Of a stretch of 21,371 bases of DNA, positions 3,866 to 9,503 are shown piece by piece. The position numbers and the translations under genes are program-made. The notes under the pieces are model-generated. The model was not told where the DNA came from and searched no databases. It saw only the letters and a list, made by a program, of their open reading frames with translations. Position 1 is the stretch's first letter. Every line of letters begins with the position of its first letter. Source of the stretch: a virus; IMG/VR virus record IMGVR_UViG_3300017748_000180, positions 1 through 21,371 of that record; one strand, given 5' to 3'.

Positions 3866-4057
3866 TTACCCCATAGGCCCACGAGCCATAGTTCCTTTAG
3901 TAGCTGCGCCCGTACCACGTATCTTAATACCACCACCTGCGCTAAAACCTTCTACTCCACGACCTTTTAGTATATCTTTTTTTGTAACTTTACCATCACC
4001 TGTGAGGTCAGGAAAACCACCTGATTTTGTTTGTTTACCCATGTTTGCTCTATTCAT
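3866..4057 (-). CDS. Mini-protein with a dockerin/EF-hand-like calcium loop and an RGxGxATKG tail, 63 aa
   Basis: Two parts are visible. Residues 17-28 (DLTGDGKVTKKD) fit the dockerin-type calcium loop: acidic or polar residues at positions 1, 3, 5 and 12, Gly at 6 and a hydrophobic residue at 8. Residues about 46-63 hold IRGTGAATKGTMARGPMG, a Gly/Lys/Arg-rich tail motif I know from small proteins of marine phages and which resembles the end of the 112-aa repeat protein here. Calcium binding is inferred from the pattern. It could be a minor virion component, since it lies between two tail genes. GGAGTG sits before the ATG. Confidence 0.7.
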   Translation of the reverse strand: MNRANMGKQTKSGGFPDLTGDGKVTKKDILKGRGVEGFSAGGGIKIRGTGAATKGTMARGPMG

Positions 4058-4066
4058 AATACACTC

Positions 4067-4393
4067 CTATGAAGTTGTTACCGTAACTGAACCTACAGAT
4101 GCAGTCATTACAAACTGTAATTTATTATCTAATGATCCTGCATACCTAACTGATCTACTTTCTGCATACCCAACAAAATCTGGTCTAGGGTCTCTTATAG
4201 CTTGTGGATCATCTACAGGAAACATACCTAACTCATTTTGTGGATGATCACCATCAAAACAAAAGGGACATGCTTTTAAATTAGTATCATTACCTTTTCT
4301 TACTATATTACGTAGCTCTCGTAATTTGTAACGAAAACCGCATATATCACATTCACCTATTGCTCTTTTTAATGACGCAAATCTATTTGACAT
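4067..4393 (-). CDS. Zinc-ribbon protein, 108 aa, in the tail module
   Basis: Two CxxC knuckles are present, C15-DI-C18 and C42-PF-C45, 23 residues apart, with H50-P next to the second. This is a clear zinc-ribbon layout. The C-terminal third is beta-prone (LQFVMTASVGSVTVTTS). I recall similar CDICGF...CPxCxDxDHPQ proteins in marine phage genomes, annotated as hypothetical. It lies between the two adaptor-like genes, so a structural role or a role in tail assembly is plausible. Nothing shows a DNA-binding or enzymatic domain beyond the ribbon. Confidence 0.75.
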   Translation of the reverse strand: MSNRFASLKRAIGECDICGFRYKLRELRNIVRKGNDTNLKACPFCFDGDHPQNELGMFPVDDPQAIRDPRPDFVGYAESRSVRYAGSLDNKLQFVMTASVGSVTVTTS

Positions 4394-4395
4394 AA

Positions 4396-5082
4396 CTAAA
4401 TCCTAGCAATACGGGGTACATAACGTTCAGAAGTTTTCTCTCTGTCTTCACCTGCAGCTAGATTATATTGTTCATCATATGCAGTTTTTAACATCTCTAC
4501 TCTACCTACAAGTTCAGGCACTTTCATAGATATATGGTACGCTAACCCTGCTACTAGACAGGGTAAAAATCTAAAAGTCATATCTGCTGTTTCTACACCA
4601 TTTCCAGCATCTTCAATACGTCTCATACGAAAGTACACAAATGTATAAATGTTGCTGTCTGGTACAGGCCATACATTAATTCTAGGTTGTGTAGCTAATC
4701 TTTCTACAAATACCTGTATTGGTCTACCGCTTGTTAACTTGTTAGGAATGGATGAGTAAGTGCTTACACCAATACGACTTATAGTAAGATCAGATTGTGT
4801 AGCGGTATTTCCGGGATTAGTGCGAATTACATGATCCAGTAAATCTACAGTGTCTGCAGGAAGATTATATTGAGAAGTACCCGAAGTTAAAGATATAGTG
4901 CCACTATCGATAGTCCACATATTAATACCACGATTTTGCCACTCAATTGTCATTAGGTTCATAGACCTACGAGCAGTGCGTAAGTCATATCCTGACCGCA
5001 TCTCGCGTCCGGCACGCTCCCACGCCTCTTCTGCGATCTCTGTAAAATCCATATCGAATGCGGTAGTGCCTGACGTAGCCAT
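4396..5082 (-). CDS. Tail accessory or head-tail adaptor protein, 228 aa (P22 gp4 / T7 gp11-like layout)
   Basis: The N-terminal helices (FTEIAEEAWERAGREMRSGY, then DLRTARRSMNLMTIEWQNRG) are typical of phage adaptor proteins that bind below the portal. They are followed by a WTIDSGTISLTSGTSQYNLP beta region, an RPIQVFVERLATQPRINVWP strand pair, and C-terminal helices (LPCLVAGLAYHISMKVPELV). Length is near that of T7 tail tubular A (about 196 aa). Together with the 214-aa protein it suggests a short-tailed morphology, which is inference. ATG at 5082 directly abuts the upstream stop; AAGGA lies about 9 nt before it, inside the upstream gene. Confidence 0.75.
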   Translation of the reverse strand: MATSGTTAFDMDFTEIAEEAWERAGREMRSGYDLRTARRSMNLMTIEWQNRGINMWTIDSGTISLTSGTSQYNLPADTVDLLDHVIRTNPGNTATQSDLTISRIGVSTYSSIPNKLTSGRPIQVFVERLATQPRINVWPVPDSNIYTFVYFRMRRIEDAGNGVETADMTFRFLPCLVAGLAYHISMKVPELVGRVEMLKTAYDEQYNLAAGEDREKTSERYVPRIARI

Positions 5083-5364
5083 TTATTTTTTCCTTTTTCG
5101 CCGTGCTGATTCTACTCTTCTTGGTTTTCCTGCTGGCTGTCCAAGTCGTTTCTTTTGGTTAATTCGTTTTCTTTTTTCGGTGGAGGACATTTCTCCAGAG
5201 GTCTTGGGAGTCTTTGAACTAACGCGTTTGGAGGGGCGACAATATGGAGTACCCCGTTTTTCACCTTTGCGACGCCCACACGCCTTCCCCGTTGATACGT
5301 CTTTCCAATCTTCTTTGAACCATCTCTTAAGAGCCAAGCCTTCTTTTGTTTTACGTACTGCCAT
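5083..5364 (-). CDS. Small very basic protein, 93 aa, KRWFKEDW type
   Basis: Contains LALKRWFKEDWKDVSTGKACG at about residues 10-30 and PYC at about 40, followed by a tail of about 45 residues dominated by Lys and Arg. I recall this KRWFKExW...GKxCGR pattern from small hypothetical proteins of marine and giant viruses. A structural zinc site from the two Cys is possible but unproven. The strong positive charge suggests nucleic-acid contact or packing inside the virion, which is inference. It is the fourth of a run of four adjacent basic genes. Upstream Shine-Dalgarno is weak, so coupling to the upstream stop 7 nt away is likely. Confidence 0.7.
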   Translation of the reverse strand: MAVRKTKEGLALKRWFKEDWKDVSTGKACGRRKGEKRGTPYCRPSKRVSSKTPKTSGEMSSTEKRKRINQKKRLGQPAGKPRRVESARRKRKK

Positions 5365-5371
5365 TCTTTAC

Positions 5372-5635
5372 TCATCTATATTGTGTAACTTTACGGCGAT
5401 TTTCTTGTACTATACCACAACCTCTAGCAACACCTTTTTTATTTGAAGGTCGTTTTCTTCTAGCTAGTCCACCACCAGAAAGTTGTACAATCCCTCCAAC
5501 AGCTTTCTTTTTAGAAGACTTACCATAATTGGAAGCACCAACTTTTCGGCATTTAGCGATAGCTCCTGAAGCATATGCGCTTGGAAAGACTTTATAACGA
5601 GATTTTACCTTATGATAACAAGCGTCTTTAGGCAT
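5372..5635 (-). CDS. Small very basic protein, 87 aa, DACYHKVKSRYKVFPSAYAS type
   Basis: The first 33 residues carry a dense conserved-looking motif (C6, YKVFPSAYASGAIAKCRKVG with C29). I recognise it from many marine phage and some large-virus hypothetical proteins. The rest is Lys, Arg, Gly and Ser rich with a second GC pair near the end. There is no membrane segment. Its 3' neighbour is the KRWFKEDW protein and its start overlaps the 94-aa gene by 8 nt, so it is translated as part of the block. Function unknown; a minor virion or DNA-associated protein is possible. Confidence 0.75.
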   Translation of the reverse strand: MPKDACYHKVKSRYKVFPSAYASGAIAKCRKVGASNYGKSSKKKAVGGIVQLSGGGLARRKRPSNKKGVARGCGIVQENRRKVTQYR

Positions 5636-5912
5636 TTTTCTTAGCCCTCCTTATACTTTCTTTTCCTTGACGAAAAATTTTTGCAACTTCAGTTTTACCC
5701 ATAACTTTGGCTCTCTGCTCACCGACAGTAAGTATCTGTATCTTTCTAGCAAACGGCTTGTTTACCTTTTTTACTTTAGCTACAGTTGCTCTAGCATCAG
5801 CAGGAGTAGCAAACTTTATACCTACAGTATCCTTTGGATTTTCATCAGTATAAAGCCTACGGCCTGATCCTTTTGGTTTTTTACCTGTGCCAGTTTTTGG
5901 GTCTTTAGCCAT
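5628..5912 (-). CDS. Small very basic protein, 94 aa, GSGRRLYTDENPKDT type
   Basis: N-terminal KTGTGKKPKGSGRRLYTDEN is followed by a segment that looks like a compact alpha/beta domain: KDTVGIKFATPADARATVAK, then KKVNKPFARKIQILTVGEQRA and a basic C-terminal helix. I recall this combination from hypothetical proteins next to the DACYHKV family in marine phages. There are no catalytic motifs. It abuts the upstream MKKKGMAAGG repeat gene without a gap. A virion or DNA-associated role is inference. Confidence 0.7.
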   Translation of the reverse strand: MAKDPKTGTGKKPKGSGRRLYTDENPKDTVGIKFATPADARATVAKVKKVNKPFARKIQILTVGEQRAKVMGKTEVAKIFRQGKESIRRAKKNA

Positions 5913-6251
5913 TTACGAACCACTCATTGTTACCATTTTGCCAGCACGAAAACCCTTGGTTGCTATACCGTTACCACGGAGTTTACCACCTTTTGAGTAA
6001 CCTTTTTTCATCATACCACCAGCAGCCATGCCTTTTTTCTTCATCATACCACCAGCAGCCATATCTTTTTTCTTCTTATCTACTTTTTTAATTGCAGCCA
6101 TTAAACCACCAGCAGCCATACCTTTTTTCTTCATCATACCACCAGCAGCCATACCTTTTTTCTTCATCATACCGCCAGCAGCCATACCTTTTTTCTTCAT
6201 CATACCACCAGCAGCCATACCTTTTTTCTTCATCATATTCATTTTATTCAT
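5913..6251 (-). CDS. Low-complexity repeat protein, 112 aa, MMKKKGMAAGG units
   Basis: After MNKMN there are four exact 11-residue units (MMKKKGMAAGG), a 19-residue variant with KKVDKKKKD, a fifth unit and a degenerate unit (MMKKGYSKGG). The tail RGNGIATKGFRAGKMVTMSGS resembles the RGTGAATKG tail of the 63-aa protein at 3866-4057. Composition is almost only Met, Lys, Gly and Ala, so it should be disordered and strongly positive. Related MKKKGYAxGG-type proteins occur in marine phages, from memory. Function unknown. The frame is clearly coding: it sits between two genes with no gap and its repeat keeps frame. Confidence 0.75.
   Translation of the reverse strand: MNKMNMMKKKGMAAGGMMKKKGMAAGGMMKKKGMAAGGMMKKKGMAAGGLMAAIKKVDKKKKDMAAGGMMKKKGMAAGGMMKKGYSKGGKLRGNGIATKGFRAGKMVTMSGS
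5985..6236 (-). repeat. 33-bp tandem repeat inside the 112-aa basic protein
   Basis: Four consecutive 33-bp units lie at 6105-6236, a 57-bp variant at 6048-6104, a fifth unit at 6015-6047 and a degenerate copy at 5985-6014. Units are almost identical at the DNA level, so copy number may vary by slippage. Confidence 0.9.
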
Positions 6252-6252
6252 T

Positions 6253-6924
6253 TTATTCGTCCTTGTACAAGTTATTAAAAGTTACTTCAGGATCCATATA
6301 ACTGTGGTCACTTTCAGCATTATGTATCCATTGGCTAGGTTTGAAATCAGGTGCGCCATCTCCTGTTTCCCATAGTGCTGGGCTAGTTGCTCTTACTCTA
6401 TTGTTAGGTAAGGCTACTATATTCCCAGTCCATGCACCTGCATCAGTAAGTTCTAAAACATGACTTTGTTTGTGTTGTGCAGGGTCGTCAGCTATATCTG
6501 TTTCTGTATAATCTACAGTAAACAAATATCGTCCTGTATAAAACTCTCCATCTATTTTACATATCCAAGGACTAGAACTAACACGATCTATCTTTAGGAC
6601 AGAGTGATGATGAGAACTACAATCCCAAGGTTGTGCAAAAGGAACGAGCATAGGTTCAGGCCATTCCTCATACGGTACATCAGCTACGAGTGCAGTAATA
6701 GGCATTCTAGCCCACATAGCGCCCCCATGTATATTAGGGTCATCAGTATCATCTGACTCACATCCTGTAAATATAACATGAAAACTAAGACATCTATCTG
6801 GCACTGTATTTACTGCTATAGCCATAGCATGTAAGAACTCTCCATGATAATCTTGATGATTACAGGTGTATTCTTTTCGTACCCAACATTTAAAATGAGG
6901 TATGTTACTTATTAAATACGGCAT
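6253..6924 (-). CDS. Conserved marine phage protein, 223 aa, unknown function
   Basis: It starts MPYLISNIPHFKCWVRKEY and includes HGEFLHAMAIAVNTVPDR, LSFHVIFTGCESDD, HGGAMWARMPITALVAD and PSQWIHNAESDHSYMDPE. I recognise these as a conserved hypothetical family from marine phage genomes, without a known function. It is rich in His, Trp and acidic residues, contains four Cys, and looks globular and beta-rich. It is not basic, unlike its neighbours on both sides. It abuts both neighbours within 1 nt, so it is part of the late operon. A virion role is inferred from location alone. Confidence 0.75.
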   Translation of the reverse strand: MPYLISNIPHFKCWVRKEYTCNHQDYHGEFLHAMAIAVNTVPDRCLSFHVIFTGCESDDTDDPNIHGGAMWARMPITALVADVPYEEWPEPMLVPFAQPWDCSSHHHSVLKIDRVSSSPWICKIDGEFYTGRYLFTVDYTETDIADDPAQHKQSHVLELTDAGAWTGNIVALPNNRVRATSPALWETGDGAPDFKPSQWIHNAESDHSYMDPEVTFNNLYKDE

Positions 6925-7215
6925 TTAACATTTCCACCTTCTTCTAGCTTGCCGTAATCTTGAGTTAGGGTCTTTAGCAGCTTTTGGAAATTGTTTCATC
7001 TGCCCAGCGCTCCGTGCGCAATAAGACTTACGGCGTTTTGCAGCTTTACTTCCAGCTTTTACTTTACCTGTAACAGCTGTCTTTAATTTACTTCCGGGGT
7101 TGTCTTTACGATATTTAGCAACACCCTTCTTAGTCATTCCAGCACCAGACTTGGTGGGACGCTTATGTCCTCCACCAATAGTGTGGCCTTTCATTGTGCC
7201 TTTACGACTAGCCAT
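6925..7215 (-). CDS. Small very basic protein, 96 aa, RRKSYCARSAGQ type
   Basis: Two visible parts: a Gly/Lys-rich N-terminus (GHTIGGGHKRPTKSGAGMTK) and a conserved-looking C-terminus with RKDNPGSKLKTAV, KAAKRRKSYCARSAGQM and SRLRQARRRWKC. This C-terminal module is one I recall from hypothetical proteins of many marine phages. Two Cys, one of them the last residue, could bind metal or form a disulphide. The net charge is strongly positive. Its start overlaps the 201-aa virion gene by 8 nt. A DNA-associated or internal virion role is inference. Confidence 0.75.
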   Translation of the reverse strand: MASRKGTMKGHTIGGGHKRPTKSGAGMTKKGVAKYRKDNPGSKLKTAVTGKVKAGSKAAKRRKSYCARSAGQMKQFPKAAKDPNSRLRQARRRWKC

Positions 7216-7813
7216 GGAAGAACGTCATCATGTCTATTGTAGCTATCGTATATTTTACTGACATGCCATCTACAAATAAGATGCCATCTGCTGGTATGGT
7301 TCTATCTAATGTAGTGTTGTCAGTGCCTATAGTACGAGACTTAAACAGAGCAGAGCCGTTCTCAGGGGTGTTATTAAAGAACTCCACAACACCAGCCGTG
7401 CCACCAGAGACTATAGAAAAGCCTTTCATGCGCACTCTATTACTACCGTTGATGGCTTCGGCGCAAAGATCACCTGATCCTACCGTAATGTTTGCAGCAT
7501 ACTTTGCAGAACATTCTACAGCACTTACTGTTAAAAACAGCTTTGCACCTGCTACAGCTTCAGCTCTACCCGTAGAAGTTATAACTTCTGTCATGGCGTT
7601 ACCAAAGACATCTGTACCAGTTATTGTGCAGGTCTTAGCATTATCTCCTGTACCAGCCGTGGTTACAGTAACATTTCTAGCCCCACCCCCAGCAAACGTG
7701 GTTTCTGCCATAGTAGCGCTAGTATCGGGTCTAGCAGCTGTTACCAAACGATCTGGATCTGATGCGTTTTCATCACTAATAAACTTAGCTGTTATATCTG
7801 AGCTATGACTCAT
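7208..7813 (-). CDS. Beta-rich virion protein, 201 aa, unknown role
   Basis: Composition is rich in Thr, Ala, Gly and Val with alternating strands (NVTVTTAGTGDNAKTCTITG, AEAVAGAKLFLTVSAVECSA, GILFVDGMSVKYTIATIDM), as in phage head or tail decoration proteins. No family is named. It lies two genes after the major capsid protein, so it is probably a virion protein. The start at 7813 has AAGGAG about 7 nt upstream, just after a terminator-like hairpin, so translation should be efficient on whatever transcript passes or starts here. Confidence 0.65.
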   Translation of the reverse strand: MSHSSDITAKFISDENASDPDRLVTAARPDTSATMAETTFAGGGARNVTVTTAGTGDNAKTCTITGTDVFGNAMTEVITSTGRAEAVAGAKLFLTVSAVECSAKYAANITVGSGDLCAEAINGSNRVRMKGFSIVSGGTAGVVEFFNNTPENGSALFKSRTIGTDNTTLDRTIPADGILFVDGMSVKYTIATIDMMTFFHG

Positions 7814-7832
7814 ATCAATCTCCTTATAAAAG

Positions 7833-7854
7833 GAGAGGGGTGTTACCCCCTCTC
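7833..7854 (-). terminator. Terminator-like hairpin after the 208-aa virion gene
   Basis: A perfect 8-bp stem, GAGAGGGG with CCCCTCTC, and a 6-nt loop. On the minus strand it is followed by CTTTTAT. It begins 4 nt after the stop codon and its T-tract runs into the AAGGAG of the next gene. The short T-tract suggests partial termination. Confidence 0.65.
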
Positions 7855-7858
7855 GTTA

Positions 7859-8485
7859 CTAGGCTTCATAGCCCATCAATTCAATAAGGAGTTTACCAGC
7901 AGTATAATCTGCATCGGTAGCAGCACCTGTGGTTAAGTATAAAAACTGATCTGCGGCAGGTACAGCAGAAAAGAAAACTTTACTACCTAGAGTTGCGTCA
8001 CCAGAGTTAACTAACAATGTCTCATCTAAGCTACTAATAGCTGCGTCTTCAACACCTGTTCCTTCTGTAGCAGAATGAATGTTAATATCTGGATCACCGC
8101 CAGCAGGAGCTTCAAAGCATTCCATGCTTCCAGTCAAGATAGTGCCGTTTTTTGCAGCAGTAATTTGACCAATGTGACAAACAAGTGCTGTGCCGTTGAC
8201 ACCAATAATGTCGCCAGAGCCTGTTGAGCGTAGACCAGTCAGGTCAATAAGAATACGAGTTGTAATGATGCCGCCCATACGCTGAACTGAACTGCGGTAG
8301 ATTGTTCCAGAACCAGTTGTAATACCAGTACCAGCTTCTACAGCCATTGTGTTTGCATCAAAAGAAGATACACCAGTTGAACTGATGCTTGAAAGAGTTG
8401 TAATAGCTCCGGTAGAGGAGTTTTCACTTATTGTAGTAAAGCCGCCTTTTGAGCGAACCGCACCTGCAAAGGTAGTATTAGCCAT
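7859..8485 (-). CDS. Conserved virion protein next to the capsid gene, 208 aa
   Basis: It starts MANTTFAGAVRSKGGF and has ILIDLTGLRSTGSGDIIGVN, CHIGQITAAKNGTILTG, FEAPAGGDPDINIHSATEG and a C-terminal FLYLTTGAATDADY then LLIELMGYE. I recognise this set from abundant conserved proteins in marine phage genomes, located near the capsid or tail genes. Predicted beta-rich; a head decoration or head fibre role is inference. AGGAG is 7 nt before the ATG. The gene lies alone between two terminator-like hairpins, which suggests its own expression level. Confidence 0.75.
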   Translation of the reverse strand: MANTTFAGAVRSKGGFTTISENSSTGAITTLSSISSTGVSSFDANTMAVEAGTGITTGSGTIYRSSVQRMGGIITTRILIDLTGLRSTGSGDIIGVNGTALVCHIGQITAAKNGTILTGSMECFEAPAGGDPDINIHSATEGTGVEDAAISSLDETLLVNSGDATLGSKVFFSAVPAADQFLYLTTGAATDADYTAGKLLIELMGYEA

Positions 8486-8594: not shown

Positions 8595-9503
8595 TTAAGC
8601 TCCGGGTGAGCCGAATATACCCAACGGATCGGACACACCAAATGAATAACGCTCACGAGCTTTGTACCGACTGTTACCAGTATCAAAATCAGCATCCATA
8701 GAGGTAGCCATAGGACTACGTGTGAAGTGCTTTAGCCCGTTAGGAACATCAGTCATAAGGAAAAACGCATCAGTATCTGTGAGATAGTGATTTATTGTAT
8801 AACCTTCAGGGACAGAACCATTATTGCGAAGCGCATTAAGATCATTATCCGCTGTTCCTACACGTCCTTCAGTTTCTAACAAACGAGTTGCCACAAACTG
8901 AAGGTTTGGTGGAATAACTAATTTACGAGGTTTTGCTGCAATCAGTAAGCCACGTTCGTCAGTCCAACCTGCAATTTGAATAACAGCGGCTTCTAATGAA
9001 GTTTCGTTAAGATCCGCTGCAGTTGCAGGTTCGTTAGAGTTTGTGCCACCAGAAACTAACGGGTGGGCTGTAGAACAAAGTTCAACACCGTCACCGTATG
9101 TAGTGCCACTAGAAAAGGCATTATTTAAAATTGTAGCTGCCTTAACTTGTTTTGTGTACGCCATCGCACGAGCCAATGCTTTAGTATAACGAGATGATAA
9201 TGAATCATACAAGTTATCTTCAATAGCCTCTTCTGTAATTGAAAAGCCCATTGCAACGGTCTCATGTGAGTAGCGAGCTGTAAATGCTTCCTGTGCATTG
9301 TCATATTCGATGGCAGAACCTTCGTTTTTAACAGGTGCAGCAGAAAAACCTGACAGCTTTGTTTCTTCTTCAAATGAACGATCAGAAGTCTCTGTTTCAA
9401 AGATCTCTGCATGTTCTTCACCATACTTAGCATACTCCAAGCCGAATAAAGCATTCAGACCGGGAAGGAGTTCTTTAAGTAGTTGTGCGCGTGAAATAGC
9501 CAT
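8595..9503 (-). CDS. Major capsid protein, 302 aa
   Basis: MAISRAQLLKELLPGLNALF, then YGEEHAEIFETETSDRSFEE, AFTARYSHETVAMGFSITEE and AIEDNLYDSLSSRYTKALAR followed by TKQVKAATILNNAF match a major capsid family I know well from marine phages. Later landmarks are STAHPLVSGGT, PRKLVIPPNLQFVATRLL (P-domain-like) and RYKARERYSFGVSDPLGIFG at the end. The length, the upstream scaffold gene and the strong AAGGAGGAG Shine-Dalgarno before ATG 9503 agree with the most abundant virion protein. An HK97-like fold is expected by family. No separate protease is visible, in line with a stand-alone scaffold. A strong terminator follows. Confidence 0.92.
   Translation of the reverse strand: MAISRAQLLKELLPGLNALFGLEYAKYGEEHAEIFETETSDRSFEEETKLSGFSAAPVKNEGSAIEYDNAQEAFTARYSHETVAMGFSITEEAIEDNLYDSLSSRYTKALARAMAYTKQVKAATILNNAFSSGTTYGDGVELCSTAHPLVSGGTNSNEPATAADLNETSLEAAVIQIAGWTDERGLLIAAKPRKLVIPPNLQFVATRLLETEGRVGTADNDLNALRNNGSVPEGYTINHYLTDTDAFFLMTDVPNGLKHFTRSPMATSMDADFDTGNSRYKARERYSFGVSDPLGIFGSPGA

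Follow-up and report, generated by a model that had tools for sequence, protein, structure and literature searches.

Small basic proteins of a pelagiphage-like head operon and their homologues among cyanophage virion proteins

Four of the small, strongly basic proteins (P1, P2, P3 and P5) encoded in the window analysed here, a stretch of 21,371 nucleotides from an IMG/VR virus fragment that is part of a HTVC023P-type (pelagiphage-like) head operon, are homologous to modules of one long chain, the T4-GC119/phrog_727 protein of T4-like cyanophages, with the gene of this chain adjoining the terminase genes. P1, P2, P3 and P5, and probably P6 and P4 as well, are best explained as small proteins packed in the phage head with the DNA, a reading that we favour as the probable one.

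The basic proteins and their conserved arrangement

The minus strand of the window carries, in order, terS, terL, the portal gene, the 48-aa basic protein P6, a GroES-like gene, a scaffold-like gene, head genes, the major head protein, two further genes, P5, a 223-aa moron-class gene, P4, P3, P2, P1, an SU10-type adaptor and tail genes, with an identical gene order found in HTVC023P. An earlier sequence-only reading had described a cluster of five extremely basic proteins of 87–112 aa inside this structural operon, and a 48-aa basic protein after the portal gene, all of which are borne out as minus-strand ORFs. The genes concerned, and those that frame them, are as follows.

P1, 5083..5364, minus strand: 93 aa, net charge +26; C-terminal half of DUF5872 (Pfam, 1.3e-14)
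P2, 5372..5635, minus strand: 87 aa, +21; core KDACYHKVKSRYKVFPSAYASGAIAKCRKVGASNYG; phrog_727 (9.9e-19)
P3, 5628..5912, minus strand: 94 aa, +18; core GSGRRLYTDENPKDTVxIKFAT..KPFARKIQILTVGEQRAKVMGK
P4, 5913..6251, minus strand: ORF of 112 aa, +28; tandem MMKKKGMAAGG repeats, C-terminus GNGIATKGFRAGK
P5, 6925..7215, minus strand: 96 aa, +28; DUF6321 (Pfam, 7.7e-12); phrog_10346 (2.2e-25)
P6, 12224..12370, minus strand: 48 aa, +15; LKKASKSHAGQA core; immediately after the portal gene
Major head protein, 8595..9503, minus strand: upstream anchor of the cassette; phrog_371 (3e-21)
Two decoration-like genes, 7208-8485: preceding the basic cluster
223-aa protein, 6253..6924, minus strand: between P5 and P4; phrog_3704 ('ferredoxin', moron class; 1.8e-32)
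SU10-type adaptor protein, 4396..5082, minus strand: downstream anchor of the cassette; Pfam SU10_adaptor (6e-11)

The pI values of P1–P6 lie between 10.8 and 11.8 and their summed charge is ~+136 per set, with the remaining late genes of the window ranging from −40 to +8 and mostly acidic. Packing is tight, with P3 and P2 overlapping by 8 nt and P1 abutting the adaptor gene. Median dN/dS values, which are rough as synonymous sites are almost saturated, are 0.11 for P1, 0.20 for P2, 0.11 for P3 and 0.17 for P5 (100–214 homologues each), and these four are real genes under purifying selection.

P1 and P5 are members of Pfam families above the curated cut-offs, P1 of DUF5872 (55.2 bits against 27.5, profile positions 49-111 of 116) and P5 of DUF6321 (46.1 bits against 28.5). 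The core of P1, LKRWFKEDWKDV..CGR..YCRPSKRVSSKTPKT, contains two invariant cysteines in an alignment of 89 homologues, and that of P5 is RRKSYCARSAGQMKxFPKAAKDPNSRLRQARRRWKC. Neither P2 nor P3 matches a Pfam family above cut-off. P2 weakly resembles the N-terminal half of DUF5872 (12.8 bits for P2 itself, and 20.1 bits to profile positions 1-39 for its DSL-LC04 homologue, both below the cut-off of 27.5), so that P2 and P1 together may represent a split DUF5872. A protein 80% identical to P3 is encoded by pelagiphage HTVC033P. P4 has no Pfam match and a weak PHROG match, with homologues of 55–358 aa. The earlier reading gave each protein a different conserved-looking core; the cores do differ, and those other than that of P4 are conserved, but the MMKKKGMAAGG 'core' of P4 is a low-complexity tandem repeat of variable length with no conserved domain, and the reading missed that four of these cores belong, as domains, to a single known protein family. 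Its statement that none has a known function holds, with DUF5872, DUF6321 and the PHROGs concerned all being families without assigned function; a search of the open-licence literature on the two DUFs turned up a single paper, on the genome of an algal virus, that refers to them briefly. A PDB sequence search with P5 and the P1 profile gave no meaningful match, and P1 modelled alone reached a pLDDT of only 60, the model not being used. A cellular origin of the P5 relatives was considered and dropped, with 28 of the 31 bacterial or archaeal contigs that carry a close P5 relative also carrying phage head-operon families.

Across 86 distinct related loci with both anchors, the small basic genes between the major capsid gene and the adaptor number 4 at the median, and this interval contains P5 in 81 loci, P1 in 76 and P2 in 73. 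As these loci were gathered by module, cross-module figures are fairer: within 2.5 kb, P2 occurs in 25/25 and P5 in 24/25 loci selected by P1, P1 occurs in 24/24 and P5 in 23/24 loci selected by P2, and loci selected by P5 hold P1 in 19/25 and P2 in 16/25. The association of P3 is looser (15/30 with P5, 6/30 with P1). The arrangement is thus a conserved cassette and no accident of this contig. In some loci the basic block is placed between portal and groES instead, as if it had moved as a unit.

Several further features of these regions were observed. The phrog_3704 gene (6253-6924) is an insert within the basic cluster, and its position differs among loci. An RG[NT]G[IA]ATKG-like C-terminal motif is common to P4 (5913-6251) and a 63-aa protein (3866-4057), a 108-aa protein beside the adaptor (4067-4393) has two CxxC pairs (CDIC...CPFC) and is likely a zinc ribbon, and a tail-fibre-like ORF (1-2724) contains numerous TSTAAELNILDGV repeats.

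Fused chains, other lineages and virion proteins

Profiles of P1, P2, P3 and P5 match the long cyanophage chains with iE values of 8e-6 to 1e-43, with phrog_727 itself matched at different positions by both P2 (268-312 of 450) and P5. The P2 profile finds modules of T4-GC119 at 1e-23 to 4e-30, P3 is the N-terminal module of P3-P2-P5 chains (iE 1e-34), P5 is the C-terminal module of T4-GC119, and the P1 module also lies within T4-GC119 proteins. In SynMITS9220M01_097 the module order is P3, P1, DUF192, P2, CWKGYEKKG and P5. With strict profiles, 91 of 122 complete long chains contain P2-P5 and 27 contain P3-P2-P5; P1 is divergent in the long chains and was detected in several with a relaxed profile. 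Like the window set, the T4-GC119/phrog_727 protein (S-SM1 SSM1_115, SynMITS9220M01_097, S-SCSM1_29) is strongly basic and encoded in the late head region, however it forms one multi-domain chain with disordered linkers beside the terminase genes, whereas the window has four separate genes beside the adaptor, and it brings additional DUF192 and CWKGYEKKG modules and SAM-lyase neighbours. The P5 of four chains (loci L201, L203, L205 and L209) is closely similar to pelagiphage P5, which suggests recent exchange.

The AlphaFold model of a long chain resembles beads on a string, with confident P3, DUF192 and P5 modules, moderate P1 and CWK modules, and linkers below pLDDT 50. The core of P2 is not confidently modelled, appearing as disordered despite its strong conservation. 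A fold search with the composite model returned only solved DUF192 structures and cyanophage relatives, and so barely tested the folds of the P modules. An alignment mixing long and short proteins was discarded, the short ones being scattered in it. A 2010 cyanophage paper names T4-GC119 as a hypothetical protein.

T7-like cyanophages carry P1 or P5 singly beside scaffold and capsid genes, with P5 immediately after the major capsid gene in P-SCSP1q and P1 between the scaffold and capsid genes in P-SCSP2. In a third, flavophage-like lineage, giant proteins of 2.2–2.5k aa lie upstream of a module row of P5, P6+P2, P3 and a permuted P1-like protein, several row proteins having a common N-terminal QKxNPF-like tag, which is possibly another capsid-targeting signal. 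At individual loci of this kind, unrelated small proteins share an N-terminal YxQKxNPF tag (L142 9085-11402; L465–L505), the tag reads FSGPFMQKSP at L485 9065-10017, P6 is fused to a P2-like module at L142 9431-9715, and the P1-like protein at L142 11121-11402 has its domain halves swapped, a circular permutation.

Homologues of the modules are reported from virions. The C-terminus of S-CREM2 gp137 is a P5 module, and gp137 was found by MS in CsCl-purified virions (4 unique peptides, 4.1% coverage), with the authors of that study noting that virion MS may include carry-over (PMC10665884). S-SCSM1_29, which carries P1, P2, CWK and P5 modules, is annotated as 'virion protein', a label taken to mean that it was detected by MS, with 45 virion proteins of this phage defined by MS (PMC9602691). 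A free 69-aa basic protein, S-SCSM1_93, is also labelled in this way and, on visual comparison, looks like the DUF3008-like N-terminus of S-SZBM1_194. Counting against a virion location, S-SZBM1_194, which occupies the module slot and lacks P1, P2 and P5, is absent from the virion protein list of S-SZBM1. In HTVC010P the P5 relative is annotated as hypothetical and a different gene as virion structural. The earlier suggestion of internal or ejected virion proteins gains support by way of relatives, from the module-bearing homologues found in S-CREM2 virions by MS and labelled virion protein in S-SCSM1, and from the T4-like capsid-targeting sequences carried by the slot neighbours of these homologues.

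Capsid-targeting-like tags and SAM-lyase neighbours

Head entry of T4 internal proteins is conferred by an N-terminal sequence of ~10 residues that gp21 removes after L/I-x-E, and these proteins are described as diverse defence proteins with only the targeting sequence in common (PMC9026906, PMC3012670). The N-terminus of IPII and IPIII is MKTYQEFIAEA and that of IPI is MKTFKEFTS. A comparable start, MK[ST][FY]xxF[ILM]xE, is found in 23 ORFs, each adjoining a module gene, that belong to six or more unrelated families; many of them are orthologues from loci centred on that gene and so represent fewer independent events. The motif is absent from 340,349 other residues and from all 1426 reverse-strand ORFs. 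Inside the module proteins a looser form of the tag occurs 14 times in 73.9 kaa, the other long ORFs having 3 in 205 kaa. In S-CREM2 a loosened tag is present on 6 of the 15 non-structural proteins that were MS-positive and on none of the 31 that were MS-negative (Fisher p = 0.0005, an optimistic value since the tag was loosened after these sequences were seen), the six being a SAM hydrolase, a Cas9-like nuclease, an APH-like kinase, a cytidylyltransferase, gp13 and gp136, with the gp136 gene adjoining that of gp137. On cyanophage capsid targeting, the open-licence literature yielded only a T4 review. The tagged cyanophage enzymes and the SAM-lyase-like (PF23780) genes at the module slot lie at the following positions.

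L507 338-1582, 4205-6814, 6811-7047 and 7080-9347, minus strand: enzymes with a T4-like capsid-targeting start
L508 4609-5469 and L462 3820-5049, plus strand: enzymes with a T4-like capsid-targeting start
L326 1871-2425, L311 5926-6660, L314 2241-3038, L318 3966-4637 and L461 15253-17376: SAM-lyase-like genes

Among cyanophage enzymes reported from virions (SAM hydrolase, Cas9-like nuclease, APH-like kinase and cytidylyltransferase/NMNAT), starts such as MKNFSSFLTEA and MKSFLQFLKEA are seen, and T4-like capsid-targeting starts would explain the packaging of such enzymes. Use of [ILMF]xE as evidence of protease sites was set aside: it precedes two modules in 86–88% of cases, P1 in 44% and P5 in 0%, with an overall enrichment of 1.75 compared with 1.39 in other ORFs.

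In T4-like phages the module slot lies between the terminase genes, and the SAM-lyase-like genes adjoin it, overlap it or are fused into it, lying beside the module gene in four loci and within S-SZBM1_194, and one of the proteins starts with a capsid-targeting-like tag. Only the S-SZBM1_194 domain passes the PF23780 cut-off; the other four fall just below it and are tied to that domain by direct sequence similarity. A late anti-restriction enzyme would make sense mainly if packaged. It is conceivable, though we would not put it foremost, that the basic proteins are ejected effectors of anti-restriction or host take-over rather than DNA organisers, with their charge merely aiding co-packaging and ejection. 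This overlaps with the favoured reading, as both place the proteins in the head, and it is consistent with the gathering of fused, adjacent and in one case tagged SAM-lyase-like proteins at the slot, with T4 IPI being an injected restriction inhibitor, and with the several small folded modules on flexible linkers in the AlphaFold model. Effectors usually have a fast turnover, however, whereas P1, P2 and P5 are found almost throughout the lineage and are strongly constrained by purifying selection, and no enzymatic domain was found in the window proteins with Pfam.

P1–P6 themselves have neither an N-terminal capsid-targeting sequence nor an L/I-x-E prohead-protease site, with a single F-x-E in P1, so that the T4 packaging route cannot apply to them unchanged. 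Expressed late from the head operon, they would instead have to enter the prohead through contacts with scaffold or shell, or by virtue of charge, and would then neutralise or organise the packaged DNA, some probably being delivered with it into the next host. In T4-like relatives, the modules would be recruited in a slot where T4-type targeting operates, and the prohead protease may cleave them. We infer that the free pelagiphage versions are packaged, head-internal, DNA-binding and ejected; organisation of DNA, like the DNA condensation proposed in the earlier reading, is plausible from their charge alone, and ejection with a counter-defence role is plausible by analogy with the neighbouring genes.

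Alternative roles and relation to known head proteins

A role in packaging or assembly, performed at the portal and neck or together with the terminase by factors that depart before the virion matures, would suit the position of the fused form next to the terminase genes, the abutment of the free form on the adaptor gene in most loci, and the failure to detect the S-SZBM1 slot protein in virions. Such a role is nevertheless unlikely, as two phages are reported to have module proteins in their mature virions and the modules are common to phages with unrelated neck and tail machinery. We consider it more doubtful still that these are late nucleic-acid-binding regulators or RNA-binding proteins outside the virion: their small size, high basicity and ribosomal-protein-like composition, together with possible MS carry-over, which would account for the detections in relatives, are in keeping with this, but capsid genes are adjacent in at least three phage types and the modules are associated with a tag that splits MS-positive from MS-negative proteins. 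Outer decoration or tail-associated proteins, suggested by the place of the window cluster after two decoration-like genes and before the adaptor, are very improbable given a charge opposite to that of other exposed late proteins and the lumen-targeting-like tags in the slot of T4-like phages.

The reading of these proteins as packed in the head is best framed by T4, from which the concept of small basic internal head proteins is already known. IPI, IPII, IPIII and Alt are small, Lys-rich, embedded in the packaged DNA and ejected, and they form a diverse, unrelated set within one phage, as do the proteins of the window, which are likewise small, basic, late and encoded beside head genes. In contrast to the T4 proteins, with which no sequence homology was seen, the window proteins have no targeting sequence or L/I-x-E site. 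Functional likeness to the T4 internal proteins, here as free genes, is by analogy the best reading. The likeness to inner-body and ejection proteins of phiKZ/SPN3US type, which are large and processed at S/A-x-E (PMC9026906), is one of concept, in which a mass of protein sits within the head and is passed on together with the DNA.

In the open-licence literature, no description was found of the link between free pelagiphage genes and a fused cyanophage virion protein, or of the capsid-targeting-like tags around the fused module gene. Connecting the window proteins with proteins known from virions of cultured cyanophages opens two DUF families and several PHROGs without assigned function to testing, and the capsid-targeting-like tag provides a rule, readable from sequence, by which the enzymes carried in cyanophage virions may be predicted. 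More tentatively, unrelated marine phage types may draw on a single exchangeable set of small basic modules for head cargo, packaged lineage by lineage, which might take the form of free genes in HTVC023P-type podoviruses, of one chain in a tag-rich slot in T4-like cyanophages, and of proteins with QKxNPF-like tags in the third lineage. If true, such a set would serve very abundant ocean viruses in common, as an aid to genome packaging or to take-over.
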